From a virus: a DNA stretch of 38,408 nt. Of the stretch, positions 4,115 to 37,661 are shown one piece after another. The notes under the pieces are model-generated. The model worked only from the letters and a program-made list of their open reading frames with translations, was not told where the DNA came from and made no database searches. Numbering within the stretch: the first letter of the stretch is position 1; each line of letters opens with the position of its first letter. The stretch covers positions 1 through 38,408 of the IMG/VR virus record IMGVR_UViG_3300033153_002985. One strand, given 5' to 3'. Made by a program: the position numbers and the translations under genes.

Positions 4115-4275
4115 TTCCCCCTTGTATCGTTTTGCTTTTGTCTCTCGTGCAGTCCTGCTTTTAACGCTGCAAGCCCTAGGAGCATTAGCTTTAGTTTCTC
4201 CCGTGGGTATTTGCTTACGGTTGATTTTGCCCTGCCGAGGTGATCGGCTAGGTCTTGGTGGGTTGCTTTTTTCAT
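4111..4275 (-). CDS. small helix-turn-helix protein
   Basis: A 54-residue protein whose centre ('THQDLADHLGRAKSTVSKYPREK') reads as a helix-turn-helix. The ATG at 4275 overlaps the upstream stop as ATGA. A longer start at 4299, with AAGGACAG upstream, is an alternative. It probably binds DNA as a small regulator. Confidence 0.7.
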   Translation of the reverse strand: MKKATHQDLADHLGRAKSTVSKYPREKLKLMLLGLAALKAGLHERQKQNDTRGK

Positions 4276-4358
4276 TTTTTCGTACCGCAGTTTGGGCATT
4301 CTCTGTCCTTGCTTGGTGCGCCGCAAAGTTTGCAGATGTCTTTTTCTTCTATTACCAT
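4272..4358 (-). CDS. 28-residue zinc-ribbon protein
   Basis: A very small gene with ATG at 4358 preceded by GAAGGGATATTAAG, ending at 4272 with an ATGA overlap. The product has CxLCG...CxNCG, two Cys pairs spaced as in a minimal zinc ribbon. A longer in-frame start upstream (4469) would run antiparallel to a good gene and is rejected. Confidence 0.65.
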   Translation of the reverse strand: MVIEEKDICKLCGAPSKDRECPNCGTKK

Positions 4359-6537: not shown

Positions 6538-7157
6538 CACGACCTGCCTATTTTCTGCAACATTCCCGCTACCTTTGGGTGTATCGGTTCTTGCTCTATC
6601 ATTACAGGTTCGTCTTTATCTTTCAAAAACGGAAGCACGCCGCCCAGCTCTTCGAACTTGCTTTTGACTTCTTTAATGACTCCGATTTTGTGCTGATTGA
6701 CAAAAAGCCACTTCCAAAATAAAATCTCATCATCCGACGTGAGTTTTTTACCGCTGTACTGGTTCACCAATTCGCTATCACGGTTCATTGCAACAGTCAC
6801 AGAGGGCTGATATAGTCCTTCGATGTCGTTTGCTATGCGCTTGCCTTTAAAGTAGTGATAACAGAAGTCTTTCACTGTGTCGAGTTCCTTGAAGGTGCGC
6901 GTTCCGGCTTGTAGTTCATTGGTGAATATTTCGGCTTCGTACTTTCTTACAACATTACTAATCGCGGTATCTGGTCTCATCATTGTATTATCGTTTCTAA
7001 TAGTCTCAACGACAAACTGTTTGATTTTATCGTCAGGGATATTTTTCAAAAGCTCTTTGTATATAAACATCGTGCTGGTATTAAATGGAATCCTAAAGCT
7101 TTCCAGCAATGCCTTTATCATTCCTGCCCTAAATGGATTATGATCTGTGCTGCTCAT
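6537..7157 (-). CDS. hypothetical protein, possible replication protein
   Basis: A 206-residue protein starting MSSTDHNPFRAG. An N-terminal extension open to 7289 is antiparallel coding of the endonuclease gene and is rejected. It has no recognisable Walker motif. Position between an HTH_39-type DNA binder and the ninG region corresponds to that of replication genes in lambda-like phages, but this is inference. The start overlaps the last codons of the inserted homing-endonuclease gene, and a near-copy of its first codons lies on the far side of that insert. Confidence 0.75.
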   Translation of the reverse strand: MSSTDHNPFRAGMIKALLESFRIPFNTSTMFIYKELLKNIPDDKIKQFVVETIRNDNTMMRPDTAISNVVRKYEAEIFTNELQAGTRTFKELDTVKDFCYHYFKGKRIANDIEGLYQPSVTVAMNRDSELVNQYSGKKLTSDDEILFWKWLFVNQHKIGVIKEVKSKFEELGGVLPFLKDKDEPVMIEQEPIHPKVAGMLQKIGRS

Positions 7158-7746
7158 GCTTATACCCCCATTTATACCCATTTGCACTATTCCTTGTACC
7201 ATTACAGCATTTAAAAATATTCGATAAATGGGAATTTGTTTGTCTTGCTGCTTCACTAAGTGAAATAAACTCACCCACAATACAGTCATTTAAGCTATAT
7301 TGTAATACTGCTTTTTTTGGCTTACCTGTGTTTATTTTTAATGTCATTGCGACAATGGAACCTTTTTTGTTATTCTCATCCCATGTTATTAGCTGTATGT
7401 TGTTTTTCGTATATCCGATAGAATCGTCTATCCTATCCACCGAGGGAATACAATCTTTTAGATAACCACTCGCCACCCATCTTGTATAGAGTTTGAAAAA
7501 GTTTTGATTTTCTAATATCCAATTTGCGAACCACCCTTTAGTATACGTTGGCATTTTATGGCCGCGTCTTTTGCTATTGAATCGTTGCATTGCGTATATT
7601 CTAGCTATTAATCCAGGAATTGATCTATTGTAAACAAGAGTGCATTTTTTGCATCTGTTTTCTAGTCCATCTTTTAGTAATTTGTGTTTATAAAATTCTT
7701 CTGTCGGTTTTTTGATATCGCATTTTTTACATTTTTTAAATGTCAT
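7138..7746 (-). CDS. HNH homing endonuclease with zinc finger and NUMOD1-like domain (copy 1)
   Basis: A 202-residue protein. It has an N-terminal zinc finger (CKKC...CKKC), a central HNH-like core around 'SVDRIDDSIGYTKNNIQLITWDENN', and a C-terminal NUMOD1-type DNA-binding segment ending NGYKWGYK. It is free-standing, not in an intron. Its tail HEQHRS is read from the start region of the next gene, whose ATG lies 20 bases before the endonuclease stop codon ends. The same tail (KHEQHKS) ends the gene on the far side, so the insert sits exactly at a gene junction. AGGAGAC precedes the ATG. Related to the gene at 36974-37582. Confidence 0.9.
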   Translation of the reverse strand: MTFKKCKKCDIKKPTEEFYKHKLLKDGLENRCKKCTLVYNRSIPGLIARIYAMQRFNSKRRGHKMPTYTKGWFANWILENQNFFKLYTRWVASGYLKDCIPSVDRIDDSIGYTKNNIQLITWDENNKKGSIVAMTLKINTGKPKKAVLQYSLNDCIVGEFISLSEAARQTNSHLSNIFKCCNGTRNSANGYKWGYKHEQHRS

Positions 7747-7829
7747 GATTGTCTCCTATCTGCTGATAGGCTTCGGACGGGGTTCGTCCTTGAGAGGCTG
7801 CCATTTTACTGGGCTTATATGTAATTATA
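7747..7829 (-). promoter_or_regulatory. promoter and hairpin leader of homing endonuclease copy 1
   Basis: The minus strand has TGGTATAAT (7824-7832) then an ~80-base leader with two adjacent hairpins, GGACG-aaccc-CGTCC and CCTATC-agca-GATAGG, the second just ahead of the ribosome site. The start TTTTATGGTATAAT and a GCnGCCTCTCA block also occur in the leader of the second endonuclease (37583-37661). Confidence 0.65.
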
Positions 7830-7878
7830 CCATAAAACATGATATTTCTAGCAAGGGGTTATGATTTGTGTTGTTCAT
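7825..7878 (-). pseudogene. 17-codon remnant of the start of the 206-residue gene
   Basis: On the far side of the endonuclease insert lies a short frame starting MNNTNHNPLLEIS, near-identical in DNA to the first codons of the intact gene at 7157 (MSSTDHNPF). It ends FMV-stop where the inserted promoter TTTTATGGTATAAT begins. This reads as the displaced original 5' end of the target gene. Confidence 0.6.
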
Positions 7879-9273: not shown

Positions 9274-9399
9274 TCATTCATTTGTGTGTGCAGCGGTTGT
9301 GTTCACATACCTGTCATGCTTTTTTCTTTTAAGCCTATTGAATCTTTGAATCTTGGCTAACCTTTTTGCTGTGTGTTTTTGGTTTTTGGGCTTAGTCAT
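9274..9399 (-). CDS. small very basic protein (41 aa)
   Basis: A 41-residue frame starting with ATG at 9399, which overlaps the stop of the upstream gene as ATGA. About a third of its residues are Lys or Arg. It ends just before the next gene's ribosome site. A nucleic-acid contact is plausible from charge alone. Confidence 0.55.
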   Translation of the reverse strand: MTKPKNQKHTAKRLAKIQRFNRLKRKKHDRYVNTTAAHTNE

Positions 9400-9698
9400 T
9401 CTTCTATCCACTGAGTATGAAAACCGTCGCATGGGCTTGAAGTGATTATTTTTTGAACTAAATGTGTTCTGTCACATCCTTCGCCATCATGCATTACGAC
9501 ATGCTCTTCATAATGCTTTTGCTTATCGTTCCATTCAAACCATCTCTTCTCTATCTCATATTGAGGATTAACCGGAGTGAATATCGGTTTTCTTTGAGCG
9601 CGCTTAGTTAATGGTTCTTCTAAGACTTTAACTATTTCTTTTTTATCTTGATCTGAAATCTTATCCATATGTGCTTTTATATTCTTACTGTTTTCCAT
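9396..9698 (-). CDS. hypothetical protein downstream of the structured RNA
   Basis: A 100-residue charged protein, no recognised domain. It is the first gene after the ~620-base structured RNA region, and its start has only a weak AGAG ribosome site, so its expression could depend on the RNA upstream or be low. Confidence 0.7.
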   Translation of the reverse strand: MENSKNIKAHMDKISDQDKKEIVKVLEEPLTKRAQRKPIFTPVNPQYEIEKRWFEWNDKQKHYEEHVVMHDGEGCDRTHLVQKIITSSPCDGFHTQWIEE

Positions 9699-9719
9699 GT
9701 TTTCTCTTTGCTCTTGTTA

Positions 9720-10322
9720 TATGACTTTGGTGAAACTCGTTTGCAAGGCATACTTAGACCTCCCCCGAAATAGGGAAAACGTCAATGTATGACTTCGGAG
9801 CCAACTTCGTAGCTTTTAACAAACGCGCACTGTTGCGCCAGTAGTTCCAATCAGCAGCGGTCACCATTGTGTGCTGAGAGTTCCATACAAGCTCTACAAC
9901 TGAATGTCAGAGCATGGTTAGGCATGAACTACCGTTAGCCTAACTTAATAGGTGACGGTATCTGGAATCGTTAAACCAGTCCCTTTAGAAAGCCTTTCGG
10001 ACGATCTCGATTTTTTTAGTTCGGTTGACAATGAAATAAGAGTTTTTTGATTTATAAGTAGGAGGGTTGAGCCTGTCAGAACTACCACTACTTATAGACA
10101 AATATTTCAAGTCAACCCCCCGAAGGAGGTCAGCAGTGATAGCTGACAGGCTAACTTGAAATATCAAAGTAAATTAAAGATCACAACGCAGGAGAGTAAA
10201 CTCTACTGACCGCGTTATTAAAATTATAACTATTAAAAGCTGAATGTTTGTTGAAGCCCCCGCATTGATGAGACGCGGAGGGAGGATTTAAGGAGGTACG
10301 ATTTAAAGGGGTAAAATCGTAC
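9720..10322 (-). ncRNA. candidate large structured phage RNA or very long structured leader
   Basis: There is no coding potential between 9699 and 10428. The minus strand folds extensively. A 5' hairpin spans 10296-10322 (9 bp). Further stems are 10257-10263/10275-10281, 10185-10191/10210-10216, 10102-10112/10154-10164 (11 bp), a UUCG-capped stem 10115-10120/10125-10130, and a pseudoknotted core 10053-10164. The 3' part has 9917-9923/9938-9944, 9851-9856/9872-9877 and 9825-9828/9835-9838. Four helices contain pairs that are G-U on the minus strand but A-C on the plus strand, which fixes the strand. An extended -10 at 10329 would start transcription at the first base of the 5' hairpin. No intrinsic terminator is visible; the 3' end is approximate. 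Confidence 0.65.
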
Positions 10323-10328
10323 AGGGTG

Positions 10329-10337
10329 ATTATAGCA
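10329..10337 (-). promoter_or_regulatory. extended -10 promoter of the structured RNA
   Basis: The minus strand reads TGCTATAAT, with a poor -35. A start seven bases downstream of the -10 falls on base 10322, the first base of the 9-bp 5' hairpin. Confidence 0.6.
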
Positions 10338-10428
10338 GAAGTTTGGTTAAACGGTTTCTTTGCTATATCTTGTCACGTCCATTACATGTTCCCCCATTCT
10401 TTGGCATCGTTGTTTTCCCATCTACTGC

Positions 10429-10806
10429 CTACTGTTGGTGATGGTTTTGGTTTCCATTCCATTGTATATCCTTTGTTGTATTTACTATTGCCCTTGCACT
10501 TGCAAAGGTGTACTTCTTGTATGTAAAGCATTCTGAGTTGTATTCAACTACTGTCGCGGTAAACTCTACCACTTCTCCGCATTTTAGCTTTTCTTCTCTC
10601 CATCTTTTAGAGTAGTTTATAAAAAAATGGTCTATTGGTATATCGTTAACAACCGCATCCTTTATTAACACTTTTTTTATCCCGCCGAACGGTTCAACTA
10701 TGCCCTCGTATCTCCCCTTTATTTTTAGCTTTTCCCCTAAATATTTTTTTAGAAAAAATCTACAATGTCTTTTTTCTTTATTTGGTGTTCTTGTATCGTC
10801 GATCAT
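10429..10806 (-). CDS. OB-fold-like small phage protein
   Basis: A 125-residue protein with 'IKGRYEGIVEPFGGIKKVLIKDAVVNDIPIDHFFI', a beta-rich pattern seen in small phage early proteins thought to have an OB-like fold. No catalytic residues. AAGGGGGAATAA precedes the ATG. The 117 bases upstream, to the HExxH gene, show no recognisable feature. Confidence 0.7.
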   Translation of the reverse strand: MIDDTRTPNKEKRHCRFFLKKYLGEKLKIKGRYEGIVEPFGGIKKVLIKDAVVNDIPIDHFFINYSKRWREEKLKCGEVVEFTATVVEYNSECFTYKKYTFASARAIVNTTKDIQWNGNQNHHQQ

Positions 10807-13477: not shown

Positions 13478-13507
13478 AGTATACCACTTTAACATAACGT
13501 TTGTCAA
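13478..13507 (-). promoter_or_regulatory. main leftward early promoter
   Basis: TTGACA (13502-13507) and TATACT (13478-13483), 18 bases apart, the -10 preceded by TGG (extended). This is the best sigma-70-type promoter in the window. It drives the 12-kb leftward chain. Its -35 lies at the edge of the divergent plus-strand leader. Confidence 0.8.
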
Positions 13508-13529: not shown

Positions 13530-13904
13530 TTAAGCTAGGTAATGCGACAATACAACATCGAAAAAGAGAAAAGCAAGCCCGACCAGCGCGAAACACGGCC
13601 TATGCGTAACCTCGACTTTTCGAGCCACACCATAAGCACCCATGAGCTTGTAGTTAGAGTAGGAGAAAGATAGGGTTCACCTGCGAATGTGTGGTTGTTT
13701 ACTCTTACAGCACACGCGCCAAGCCCGGCAAAGGTGGACAAGACCGTCTGTCCGTGTGCTGTATGATTTACAACTGTTAAGATTTTAAAGAGCGGGACAA
13801 GGCGAGACTGGAGGAGCGCGCCTGCCTTGCACGTGGGAAAATGTTGGATCGTAGCCAACTGTCTCGTTCTGAGAGTCTTAACAAGTTCTATAAAAGGGGT
13901 AAAG
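13530..13904 (+). ncRNA. structured non-coding leader of the plus-strand operon
   Basis: These ~375 bases hold no credible gene. The plus strand has an 11-bp stem 13706-13716/13753-13763, a hairpin CTCGA-cttt-TCGAG (13611-13624), GTTGG/CCAAC (13843-13847/13855-13859), and an enclosing 11-bp stem with one bulge (13772-13782/13876-13887). Inside that stem, CAAGGC (13798-13803) pairs with GCCTTG (13824-13829) and the adjoining GAGAC (13804-13808) pairs with GTCTC (13861-13865), a classic H-type pseudoknot. The last stem ends just before the AAAAGGGG ribosome site of the first gene. Strand is inferred from gene orientation. No clear promoter was found. Confidence 0.55.
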
Positions 13905-18658: not shown

Positions 18659-18667
18659 ATTATATCA
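18659..18667 (-). promoter_or_regulatory. extended -10 promoter of the lysis-type cassette
   Basis: TGATATAAT on the minus strand in the 28-base gap after the kelch gene, with a second TATAAT ten bases upstream. No evident -35. It would give the cassette independent expression. Confidence 0.5.
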
Positions 18668-21529: not shown

Positions 21530-23344
21530 TTATACAAATAAGTACCCATCGGTACCGTCTGGGTTTAATCCGTTGTCATCGGCAAAATAACCGTACAACT
21601 CTTTATATTCGTCCGAATCCGTAGAATAGTCAACCGCGTCATCTGGTGCAAAATATCCGAAATTCAGATCATCAAAGAAAGAGGTGCGAACTTTGAGCGC
21701 GAAGCGGTGCGCTGTTGATGTTTCTTTCGATTCGATAACATAATATCTCTTAAGCGGTATCGCGCCTGTGTTGTCCTGATCGGTGCGTGTTGCAATGTCA
21801 ATATAAATACCTACTTCTATTTTGTCGGCGGCATCTACAGAAAAAGACAACTCGACTGGTGTATCTTTCGCATAATTCACCAATGCGGAACTGAAGCCGC
21901 TTACTCTTGTTTCGCTTGTGAACCATCTCGACATTATGTTTTTAACACGCTTATCGCCGTATAGGTCTTCACCCTCTTCTGTCAAAGCGGCTGTTATTAA
22001 AGTCTGTGCATAATCGTCTTCATCTTTGAGCTGTGACCAATCATAAGGCGAGTATGATACCCACATCTGCGTAAGTCGCTCGCTGTCGTTCTTGGTGATC
22101 TTCATTGAGCCGCCGACTATCTGCGTATTATCATAAAATGCAGGTACTGTGTCAGTTGGTGGTGAAGGTGCTATGGCTTTTATTTTAACCTTTTGGGTGA
22201 GCGCATCGGCCCACATTAAGCACATTGATTGATATGTAAGTTCGTCGATTAGCGTACCGACTCCTGTGGGCTTTGATACGATAGTATGGTGATTCACATC
22301 GCTGAACCAGGCGGCCTTTTCGTCGTCCCATTCGTCCGGGTCTGATGGATTATCATTATAAGGCAGGTACGAGACGGGAATATCTGCATAATCTTTGCAT
22401 AGTTCGTAAAGAATATCAACAAAATTATCATCAAACACTTTGCACTCTTGAACCGTATCGTCTTCGCTATGGCTTTCCGCTGTGGTACCATATTGACCGC
22501 GTACGATTGTTAAAACGTCGCTACTGCGCGTGAAGTCCATTATCTCATCACCAATGCGTATCAGGCCGCTTGCTGCATATTCTGAGCCTATCCCTGACGG
22601 CGTTAGCGTTGCTGTTGTATCTGAGTCGGTAATGTCTGCGAAAAGAGATCCTTCGGACGGCGCCGGGCATTGGGCGCGTTCGTTGTCAATCTTTTTGAGC
22701 GTGTCTATGCCTGTGATTTTAACGATACCTTTGGAATCGGGGCCTTCGATATTTTCAATCAAGTATTCGCGAGTCTCGTAATTAAAAAGGCTGAATCCAT
22801 CGGCTGTACCATGCACAACCTGAGCGCCGTCTTTTACGACCGGAACGCCGTCTTTTACGACTTGTATCGGCCCGGCACCTGAGTACCCGGTCATCACCTT
22901 GATTTTACGGCCTATGTAATATTTATTCCTGGCTATCAGTTTGCCGAAGAAAGTACCTTGCTCTGTATCGTAAGAACGGCTTGATTGATACGGGTCTATG
23001 CCTATATCGTCGTGCTTAAAATCCCTGAGAAGTACGGTACATTTACCGCGATATCCTAGTCCTTGACCGAATGTAACGCGATTGGGTGCGATATTGGCAC
23101 TGATAAGACAAGGGTGCATTAATTCGCCGATAGGTACGAGTTGGTTTTCCTGGATAAAGGTGTGCGTTACTGTGGCCCCTGCGAAGTTGGCAGTGTCTTT
23201 GCATGTTGAGCGTGTGTTATAGCACTCTTCGCCCGTAGCGGTACAAGGCGATACACCAAATGTTAAAGAGCAGTCGCTTAACTCTATTTGACATATTGAT
23301 GACGTTTTTCGGCCAAATTCTAACGCCTCAGATGAGTAGCTCAT
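21530..23344 (-). CDS. tail hub / baseplate-like protein
   Basis: A 604-residue protein, the largest after the tape measure. It is mostly beta, with several Cys near the N-terminus (CSLTFGVSPC, CYNTRSTC). The position directly after the distal-tail-type gene and before the adhesins is that of the tail hub (gp27-like/Tal-type) in siphoviruses. Assignment is by order, size and composition. It overlaps the upstream gene by 17 bases. Confidence 0.7.
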   Translation of the reverse strand: MSYSSEALEFGRKTSSICQIELSDCSLTFGVSPCTATGEECYNTRSTCKDTANFAGATVTHTFIQENQLVPIGELMHPCLISANIAPNRVTFGQGLGYRGKCTVLLRDFKHDDIGIDPYQSSRSYDTEQGTFFGKLIARNKYYIGRKIKVMTGYSGAGPIQVVKDGVPVVKDGAQVVHGTADGFSLFNYETREYLIENIEGPDSKGIVKITGIDTLKKIDNERAQCPAPSEGSLFADITDSDTTATLTPSGIGSEYAASGLIRIGDEIMDFTRSSDVLTIVRGQYGTTAESHSEDDTVQECKVFDDNFVDILYELCKDYADIPVSYLPYNDNPSDPDEWDDEKAAWFSDVNHHTIVSKPTGVGTLIDELTYQSMCLMWADALTQKVKIKAIAPSPPTDTVPAFYDNTQIVGGSMKITKNDSERLTQMWVSYSPYDWSQLKDEDDYAQTLITAALTEEGEDLYGDKRVKNIMSRWFTSETRVSGFSSALVNYAKDTPVELSFSVDAADKIEVGIYIDIATRTDQDNTGAIPLKRYYVIESKETSTAHRFALKVRTSFFDDLNFGYFAPDDAVDYSTDSDEYKELYGYFADDNGLNPDGTDGYLFV

Positions 23345-33902: not shown

Positions 33903-33944
33903 TTGATATGTATCAAGGCTTTTTAGTTTTATTTGTGTAATAAT
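33903..33944 (+). promoter_or_regulatory. palindromic operator and extended -10 promoter of the lone zinc-finger gene
   Basis: TTGATATGTATCAAGGC (33903-33919), 16 bases, TGT-AATAAT. One base differs from the operator at 14673 and the spacing to TGn is identical. It lies five bases from the divergent late promoter element, so one bound protein could affect both. Confidence 0.65.
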
Positions 33945-33965
33945 TATAAAAACAGGGGGTTAAAC

Positions 33966-34436
33966 ATGAGTTTTCATGAAACGTATAAAGAAAAAGTCTG
34001 TAAGCGCTGCCATGAGAGTAAAAATATTTCTGATTTTGTAGTGCCATATGGAGATGGTGTGGCGTCTAGACCGTATTGCTCCGAATGCAGACGGCTTATT
34101 GTTCTTGAAAAAAACGCGTATCAGGCTGCTCTGGTCAAAAAAAGGCAAGCCGAAAAAAGAAAAGAAAGGGCCTTAATGCTTAAAAGCGGTGAGGCTTTTA
34201 TTTGCCCCAGATGCAAACGTAATTTTCTCATAAAATATAAAACTAAAAATGGGATTTGCACAGGCTGTGCTAAACAAATAATAGGCAATGAAGAATATAA
34301 TAAAATGATAGATTCTGCCGAAGAGCGCAGGAAAATAATACGCAAAAAATGGGCCACATCTCAACACGAAAAGGCAGAGGCCGAGAACAAAGAGCAGGAT
34401 ATGATTGCTGCTTTCTTAAAAAAGAAAAAAGATTAG
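33966..34436 (+). CDS. zinc-finger protein, lone plus-strand gene in the head module
   Basis: A 156-residue basic protein with an N-terminal CxRC...CSEC finger (CKRCHESKNISDF...YCSEC), a second CPRC...CTGC finger (about 80-105) and a charged helical C-terminus ending KKKKD. The N-terminal finger resembles those of the HNH endonucleases here, but no nuclease core is seen. The start at 33966 follows AGGGGG. It runs opposite to all neighbours, overlaps the MuF-like stop, and has its own operator-controlled promoter: the profile of a cargo ('moron') or regulatory gene. Confidence 0.8.
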   Translation: MSFHETYKEKVCKRCHESKNISDFVVPYGDGVASRPYCSECRRLIVLEKNAYQAALVKKRQAEKRKERALMLKSGEAFICPRCKRNFLIKYKTKNGICTGCAKQIIGNEEYNKMIDSAEERRKIIRKKWATSQHEKAEAENKEQDMIAAFLKKKKD

Positions 34437-35533
34437 ACCACGTTAAGGTTTTTCTTTATCTCCGGTATCGTAAGGCGTTGGTTTCGCGTCTTACTTACAA
34501 GGTCGTTAAAATCCGCGCCCTCGTCTTGAAACAGTTTGTATCTACCCGCGCCCAAATATGCTTTTTGCTCTGTTTTCGGCCATGTCTTAAATATCTCTTT
34601 AAACGATTTATCGCTGCTAACCTCGCCCGTCTTTTTAGGCGTGAACTTCGTGGAGGTCGTGCCGTCTCGATGATGTACTGTCCGTTTATCCCATATCACA
34701 GTAGGGCGGGTTGTCGGTTCCTCTAAAGTCTCTTTAGTCTCAGGAATTAGGATTGACCTGCAATTATAATGCAGTGCTGGCTGGTTCGGTACGTTGCTGA
34801 TAGTGCCATACTTCGACAATGGATAATATACCCCGTCAAGATTCGCGCATATCTCAGAGGTGCGATTGTCGAGTGTCGCCGTATAGGTGTAGCCGACAAT
34901 CTGCCCGCCCTTCTCCATTTGTGCGTATCCTTCCATCTGCGCCTCACGTACCGCCTGGGTCATCGCTGTGCGCGCTATGGTGTCAATATCTCGCCGTTCG
35001 ATCTTTGCAATCACATCGCTTGTCGCGTCTATCATGCGGGCTTGTCGTTGGGCTTCTGATATCCCTGTACCGTCATAAAGGCTGTTAGCGATTGATTTTC
35101 TCAATTTGCTGGATATGCCGAAGATGAAGTTTTCTTTATACTCTTTGAGCGTATAGCCTAATATCGGCCTTGTCGGGTCAAGTATTCTTTTGATTGCCGC
35201 GTCTGGGAGGGTAGAATAAACCGCCGCCGTTGCCCCAACTGATGTTGCTAGTTTCGCCGTAGCGTTGTAGCTGATTGGTGCGACCTCTTCCATGTCTTTC
35301 ATAATGAGCGCGTCGAACTCGCTGAAAGCTTTGGCTATCTCTTCGTTTACCGTTTGCCGAAGCACTATCAGTCTGCGTTTGTCGGTCAAGTCGCCTGTCG
35401 TGGCTATCTTGGCGTTAATGACTTCTTTCGCCATATTGAGCGCGTCGATAGTTATTTCTATCGTGTCGGGTTTGTAGCGTTCAAGGTATAGAAATGTCGC
35501 TAATACCTTGCTGATTAGTGGGTTTTCACTCAT
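34433..35533 (-). CDS. MuF-like minor head protein
   Basis: A 366-residue protein. Residues ~175-275 hold the Mu F-type domain ('IARTAMTQAVREAQMEGYAQMEKGGQIVGYTYTATLDNRTSEICANLDG...ALHYNCRS'). These proteins are attached to the portal and are packaged in the head. It overlaps the portal gene by eight bases. Confidence 0.9.
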   Translation of the reverse strand: MSENPLISKVLATFLYLERYKPDTIEITIDALNMAKEVINAKIATTGDLTDKRRLIVLRQTVNEEIAKAFSEFDALIMKDMEEVAPISYNATAKLATSVGATAAVYSTLPDAAIKRILDPTRPILGYTLKEYKENFIFGISSKLRKSIANSLYDGTGISEAQRQARMIDATSDVIAKIERRDIDTIARTAMTQAVREAQMEGYAQMEKGGQIVGYTYTATLDNRTSEICANLDGVYYPLSKYGTISNVPNQPALHYNCRSILIPETKETLEEPTTRPTVIWDKRTVHHRDGTTSTKFTPKKTGEVSSDKSFKEIFKTWPKTEQKAYLGAGRYKLFQDEGADFNDLVSKTRNQRLTIPEIKKNLNVV

Positions 35534-36973: not shown

Positions 36974-37582
36974 TTATTCGTACCTCCACCTATAGCCGCC
37001 CGCAGTTTCTCTTTCTCCTCTACAGCATGAAGCTAGATTTCCACAAGATACGCCTGTTTGTCTTTTTGCATCCTGCGCTGATACAAATTTATTTAACTCT
37101 TCGCCATCGAGTTTATATTGAATAACTGTTTTTTGCGGCCTATGTCCATGTTTAATTTTACCTGAGCGCATATCTGCCTCCGCCTTGGCTTTATTCTCGC
37201 CCCACGTCATAAGCTGGATATTATCAAAACTATATCCTTTTTTGTCATCTTTCCTGTCTATACTCGGCGACAGGTTTTTATTATAATCAGACTCTACCCA
37301 TTTTTGATACAATGGCCCAAACTCAATTTTAGAAAATATCCATATTCTCAATTCGCCAAGTGTGTATTTTGGTACGCTGTGGCCTCTGCTTCTGCTGCTT
37401 CCTAGCTGGGAACTATAGATATTTGCCACTAGGCCGCTTTTGGTTTTCTTATATGCTGCGCTTCGTAAATTATTGCATCTTTTACACTGTAATTTTAAAC
37501 CGTCTCTATTGGCTTTCTGTTTGCCAAAATCATCTATTGGTTTTTCTGTTTTACATTCGGTGCATTTTTTAGAAGTGTTCAT
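36974..37582 (-). CDS. HNH homing endonuclease with zinc finger and NUMOD1-like domain (copy 2)
   Basis: A 202-residue protein: zinc finger CTEC...CKRC, core 'SPSIDRKDDKKGYSFDNIQLMTWGEN', C-terminal NUMOD1 pattern 'SAQDAKRQTGVSCGNLASCCRG' ending GGYRWRYE. It is homologous over its whole length to the gene at 7138-7746. The start at 37582 follows TTGGAG. It sits between TerL and the portal gene. Its promoter overlaps the TerL stop codon. Confidence 0.9.
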   Translation of the reverse strand: MNTSKKCTECKTEKPIDDFGKQKANRDGLKLQCKRCNNLRSAAYKKTKSGLVANIYSSQLGSSRSRGHSVPKYTLGELRIWIFSKIEFGPLYQKWVESDYNKNLSPSIDRKDDKKGYSFDNIQLMTWGENKAKAEADMRSGKIKHGHRPQKTVIQYKLDGEELNKFVSAQDAKRQTGVSCGNLASCCRGERETAGGYRWRYE

Positions 37583-37661
37583 GTAGGTTCTCCAATTCAA
37601 TTTCCAATTCAGAACAAATGAGAGGCCGCTAAACCTCTCGAATTGGACTTATATTATACCA
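37583..37661 (-). promoter_or_regulatory. promoter and hairpin leader of homing endonuclease copy 2
   Basis: TGGTATAAT (37653-37661) is followed by a nested hairpin: CCAATTC...GAATTGG enclosing GAGAGG...CCTCTC. The start TTTTATGGTATAAT, ATAAGyCCA and GCnGCCTCTCA are shared with the leader of copy 1. The TAA inside TATAAT-context is the TerL stop. Confidence 0.65.

Follow-up and report, generated by a model that had tools for sequence, protein, structure and literature searches.

What does a phage keep in a gap of its genome that carries no gene? The question is raised by positions 9699-10428 of the IMG/VR virus record IMGVR_UViG_3300033153_002985, which was analysed over its whole length of 38,408 bases (positions 1 to 38,408, called the window here). 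An initial annotation had placed in this gap a structured RNA read from the minus strand and driven by its own promoter, a claim that single-sequence tests support well. The gap very likely encodes a structured minus-strand RNA of about 620 nt running from 10322 to about 9695, all structural statements on it being single-sequence predictions.

The gap, its neighbours and its promoter

The ends of the record overlap by about 114 bases, and the phage genome (GC 43.7%) is therefore in all likelihood complete and circular, with a length of about 38,294 bp. Between 0.6 kb and about 13.5 kb the predicted genes are on the minus strand, which also encodes nearly all of those from 17.5 kb to the end (the exception is 33933-34436). 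A short plus-strand block at 14.7-17.5 kb holds recombination genes (Erf-like, Gam-like and NinB). Inside the gap, no open reading frame bears the codon signature of the phage: the two longest minus-strand frames have per-codon log2 odds of -0.06 and -0.08 and the plus-strand frame 10326-10526 has -0.33, against a median of +0.34 for the known genes. The earlier view that neither strand carries a credible gene is thus borne out within the gap itself, but a 24-codon frame with a strong ribosome site overlaps the 3′ end of the RNA (Table 1).

How would such an RNA be transcribed? An extended -10 element, TGCTATAAT, is found where the initial annotation had set it, and the start that it predicts is the first base of the 9-bp hairpin P1. 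No -35 element is recognisable upstream of TGCTATAAT; extended -10 promoters commonly lack one. Five TGNTATAAT sites occur in the genome against 1.9 expected. Every one is on the minus strand in a gap, with a gene or the gap RNA beginning shortly downstream, and one reaches into the last base or so of the terminase gene. With 10.8% of the genome non-coding, chance is by inference very unlikely to have put all five sites in gaps and on the right strand, even when the A+T richness of gaps is taken into account. The TGNTATAAT sites are probably the extended -10 promoters of the phage, and the promoter of the gap RNA is a credible one.

The other four TGNTATAAT sites, at 37653-37661, 18659-18667, 7824-7832 and 1412-1420 (all minus strand), each occupy a gap ahead of a gene, which in two cases is endonuclease VII/HNH-like. 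Two related endonuclease VII/HNH-like proteins are encoded at 7138-7746 and 36974-37600 (minus strand), each with its own promoter-like TGGTATAAT. One of these genes is directly downstream of the terminase gene, and both look like free-standing homing endonucleases. In addition, a near-consensus promoter at 13478-13507 on the minus strand (TTGACA-18-TATACT, 11/12 with TG) overlaps the annotated start of an HTH protein. This is probably the promoter for early leftward transcription; if so, the HTH gene would truly begin further downstream.

Table 1. Coordinates of the features in and around the gap RNA (positions in the window).
Feature	Positions	Strand	Remarks
Structured RNA	9695..10322	-	z about -5, first of 116 windows; 3′ end undefined, may extend into gene 9698
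Extended -10 element TGCTATAAT	10329..10337	-	predicted start near 10322; one of five TGNTATAAT sites
P1, 9-bp 5′ hairpin	10296..10322	-	10322-10314/10304-10296; mean pair P 0.97
First ACCUCCUU motif	10290..10297	-	identical to anti-Shine-Dalgarno core; partly unpaired
P2 hairpin, 9 bp	10257..10281	-	P 0.93
P4 hairpin	10183..10218	-	P 0.87
Bistable domain	10053..10168	-	predicted state A rod or state B hairpins; both below all 300 shuffles
Second ACCUCCUU motif	10123..10130	-	in UUCG-capped tip
Candidate H-type pseudoknot	9917..9960	-	UACCGU/ACGGUA with GUUAGGC/GCCUAAC; pseudoknot itself drawn by eye
3′ domain	9695..9917	-	closed by arm 9917-9878/9738-9695; includes start codon of gene 9698
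24-codon ORF MPCKRVSPKSYNKSKEKTWKTVRI	9677..9751	-	ribosome site CGGGGGAGG at 9767-9759; ends inside gene 9698
Downstream gene (gene 9698)	9396..9698	-	100 aa, no assigned family, weak ribosome site

Folding of the predicted transcript

Structure beyond chance, as expected of a large structured phage RNA, is found on the strand of the predicted transcript. The stretch 9690-10322 of the minus strand folds with z=-5.15 against shuffles, and in a genome-wide set of 629-nt windows (116 combinations of window and strand) the gap comes out on top, a ranking that is rough because few shuffles were made per window. Long strong stems number 16 in the gap RNA, the most among 242 windows (mean 4.1), while shuffles of its own sequence hold 4.2 +/- 2.0 (maximum 11, n=120). 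The predicted ensemble of the minus strand contains 27 helices of at least 3 bp with P>0.5, where at least nine had been drawn before. A pairing of the P1 loop with 9986-9981 was rejected, its 6 bp being too short to count. Other 160-nt stretches whose folding energy is unusually low occur in the window at 37441-37600 (plus, z -5.4), 35361-35520 (minus, z -4.7) and 4161-4320 (plus, z -4.3), and lie within or antisense to genes.

Is the fold a property of one strand? For 10053-10257, z is -5.31 on the minus strand and -1.68 on the plus strand, and for 9694-9919 it is -2.56 and -0.68, the structure being well defined on the minus strand only in both cases; the boundaries of both domains were picked after folding, which leaves the comparison between strands fair. 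At full length (9699-10335, 20 shuffles each) the strands differ less (z -4.83 minus, -2.86 plus), the plus strand also folding well because long perfect stems are symmetric. Four pairs that are G-U on the minus strand and C-A on the plus strand had been put forward as a sign of selection on minus-strand RNA. All four are confirmed, but only three sit in favoured helices: 10063/10119 falls in a minor competing helix, and 10119 pairs mostly with 10126.

Strand preference also bears on the view that the gap is a DNA element (a replication origin, packaging site or recombination site) whose inverted repeats merely resemble RNA helices. Several perfect inverted repeats of 9-10 bp are indeed present. 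The clear preference of the fold for one strand and the promoter at its 5′ edge nevertheless speak for an RNA, and neither iterons nor a change of skew are seen at the gap. A DNA element is considered very improbable. We also rejected a transposable element, since the inverted repeats that would flank it (9773-9787/10405-10419) match at 80% over 15 nt, which is at chance level by our estimate.

The middle domain is predicted to adopt two mutually exclusive states. State A is a rod made of 10152-10143/10079-10070 (10 Watson-Crick pairs) and 10142-10132/10092-10082 with the UUCG-capped tip (-45.1 kcal/mol), and state B consists of the hairpins 10164-10154/10112-10102 (11 pairs, extendable) and 10096-10088/10061-10053 (9 pairs; -42.7 kcal/mol). 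For comparison, 300 shuffles of 10168-10053 have a mean of -25.7 and a best value of -37.4 kcal/mol, so each state beats them all. When folding of the growing chain is modelled, the first state-B hairpin is predicted to persist until 10080 and the state-A helix to displace it once 10079-10070 emerges. In an alternative combination, 10152-10143/10079-10070 and 10118-10113/10068-10063 pair while both state-B hairpins stay closed. The combined strands could form a loop-loop pseudoknot, a structure beyond the scoring of the folding programs, for which duplex energies only were computed. The middle domain may either switch between states A and B or combine them.

Relationship to known large RNAs

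Does the RNA belong to a known class? The initial annotation could not match it to any, and the search with Rfam covariance models (4227 families) agrees: a spurious microRNA model aside, nothing matches in the gap, whether at the gathering threshold or up to E=10. The models found without a match there include those of ROOL and of the conserved 3′ region of GOLLD (both to E=10), group I and group II introns, RNase P, tmRNA and other Rfam RNAs. Blastn with the gap finds no homologue in phages and plasmids, and nothing was found by a related-locus search with the downstream protein or by tblastn with both flanking proteins. Relatives of the major capsid protein are present in IMG/VR at 70-84% identity. 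In 41 records of capsid relatives, the blastn matches do not exceed about 19 nt; beyond the capsid, the 13 capsid relatives examined have little in common except distant structural proteins, and conserved synteny among the relatives examined comes down mainly to the capsid protein. Scans of IMG/VR and GTDB used short patterns, which are sensitive to close relatives only: TGGAACTACTGGCGCAAC gives 24 hits in IMG/VR, mostly repetitive and in coding-like context, with no RNA similarity, and CTGACAGGCTCAACCC and AAGCTACGAAGTTGGCT give isolated matches without a partner strand. Composite probes back-translated from the open frames of the gap find no homologue in IMG/VR and GTDB, and single-sequence covariance models of two domains recover only the window itself among 50 records.

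GOLLD and ROOL are phage RNAs that are often found near tRNA islands and form RNA-only cages; GOLLD, with a conserved 3′ region, often exceeds 800 nt and is usually near such islands (PMC12286853). Like ROOL (rumen-originating, ornate, large), the gap RNA is phage-encoded, about 600 nt long and rich in predicted helices and pseudoknots, and occupies a gap of its own, but it has no Rfam match and no tRNA island, and the start of the next gene lies inside its 3′ domain. With GOLLD it shares its large size, its ornateness and a place in a phage gap free of genes, but at about 620 nt it matches no GOLLD model and lies away from any tRNA island, a location that is frequent for GOLLD without being obligatory. 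It resembles both in size, setting and ornateness, but the covariance-model match that would define membership of either family is lacking. The structures of GOLLD and ROOL have been solved and, to our knowledge, neither has a known function. ARAGORN calls a tRNA-Ala at 13792-13869 (plus strand), 3.5 kb from the gap RNA; the call was rejected as a probable false positive, the Rfam tRNA model giving no match even at E<=5.

An abundant RNA of about 800 nt and unknown class was seen by RNA-seq in ICP1, between gp139 and gp140 (PMC7567579). It is likewise a large RNA of unknown class in an orf-less gap of a phage without tRNAs, but it was observed by RNA-seq whereas the gap RNA is predicted from sequence, and no sequence similarity between the two was found in the phage collection.

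These phage precedents (PMC12286853; PMC7567579) favor a new class of large, ornate and free-standing RNA, acting, in the manner of GOLLD, ROOL or OLE, as an RNA or an RNA-only assembly, and whose 3′ end would merely overlap the next gene. In that case the loop-loop complementarity of the middle domain would link parts of a single molecule, or several molecules to one another. Size, complexity and its own promoter fit such an RNA, as do the surplus of competing long stems (16 against 4) and a purine content of 0.47 that is unlike the 0.61 of the phage mRNAs. It would nevertheless have to be squared with the failure to find an Rfam match or homologue, with the lack of a terminator or other 3′ end signal, and with a 3′ domain that takes in the start of gene 9698; we regard it as a serious possibility that falls short of being probable. 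The more specific proposal, a class unrelated to GOLLD, ROOL and OLE with a bistable core whose loops pair within or between molecules, and with a 16S-tail-like ACCUCCUU that could touch translation, is possible but somewhat doubtful. If this is so, yet another unrelated class, in a phage of only 38 kb, would mean that compact genomes repeatedly pay for such RNAs.

The 3′ domain, the start of gene 9698 and anti-Shine-Dalgarno-like motifs

In the arm predicted to close the 3′ domain, gene 9698 has both its start codon and its weak ribosome site paired (P about 0.75-0.9); the excess of the arm over chance is modest (z -2.56), with limits picked after folding. The ribosome site of the 24-codon frame, CGGGGGAGG, stands seven bases ahead of its AUG. 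Three copies of CGGGGGAGG exist in the genome, all on the minus strand, the other two at the predicted terminase small subunit and at gene 21530-23344. Each of the three copies is shortly followed by an ATG, with similar spacing; translation of the 24-codon frame is therefore probable unless structure hides it, and in the predicted fold its ribosome site and AUG are mostly paired. The gap RNA and gene 9698 run in the same direction, and no strong terminator was found between them.

This arrangement is what a leader controlling translation would look like. Regulated 5′ leaders such as riboswitches, translation attenuators and leader-peptide coupling share with its predicted structure two exclusive folds, starts lying in helices and a short frame overlapping the next gene, but the gap RNA is several times longer and has no terminator switch, known ligand or binding protein. 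The initial annotation had offered either a new structured RNA or a very long leader of gene 9698: the lack of an Rfam match or homologue fits the former, and the start codon in the 3′ domain together with the missing strong terminator favors the latter. The two readings, a switchable leader of great length and an ornate free-standing RNA, are about equally likely, the leader being placed slightly ahead mainly because the 3′ domain arrangement suits control of translation.

Our tentative preference, at somewhat less than even confidence, is accordingly for the gap RNA as an exceptionally long leader that refolds and acts in cis. The strand-specific structure beyond chance points to it, as do the promoter element at the 5′ edge (one of five such sites, all in minus-strand gaps), the refolding predicted during synthesis of the bistable domain, the pairing of both starts in the 3′ domain, the recurrence of CGGGGGAGG before ATGs, and a co-directional next gene reached without a strong terminator. 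The length of 620 nt, on the other hand, is far beyond that usual for regulated leaders, and no homologue was found that could provide covariation or a conserved link with gene 9698. This gene has no known function, neither a ligand nor a protein is implied, and the closing arm exceeds chance only modestly.

What was computed are the folds, with their strand preference and their excess beyond chance, the statistics of the promoter and where both starts sit in the 3′ domain; from these we infer how transcription, switching, coupling and the regulatory outcome might proceed in such a leader. Leftward transcription from the extended -10 promoter of the gap RNA would yield the structured RNA of about 620 nt and continue, without a strong terminator, into gene 9698. 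The 5′ and middle domains of the RNA would fold first, the middle domain being made as one fold and rearranged when strand 10079-10070 emerges. Two starts would then be hidden in the 3′ domain, the AUG of gene 9698 and, with its strong ribosome site, that of the 24-codon frame. Opening of the arm, for example by upstream refolding or by ribosomes that occupy the short frame, may allow translation of gene 9698 and the genes after it. Since the gap RNA appears physically tied to the start of one gene, with strong predicted refolding, its function could be approachable by a reporter.

New relative to the initial annotation are the bistable middle domain, the 3′ domain that includes a start, and the only two copies of ACCTCCTT in the whole genome, both of which lie in the gap RNA (10297-10290 and 10130-10123). 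CTCC is also frequent there, with 7 occurrences against 0.9 expected from the minus strand of the genome, an excess that falls to about three-fold, by our estimate, after correction for the composition of the gap RNA. C-rich staphylococcal RNAs such as RsaA mask the ribosome sites of messages (PMC3961350), and a trans-acting regulatory RNA of this kind could use the ACCUCCUU/CUCC motifs, the first ACCUCCUU being partly unpaired, to mask ribosome sites of other messages. However, most copies have local G-rich partners, and local pairing is the simpler explanation for most of them. Moreover, AAGGAGGT is absent from the coding strand of the phage, so that targets would have to be in the host, and we consider such a role improbable. 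The motifs could act in cis on the 24-codon frame or in trans on other messages; together with its flanks, the second ACCUCCUU could form 14 pairs with the ribosome site at 9770-9757.
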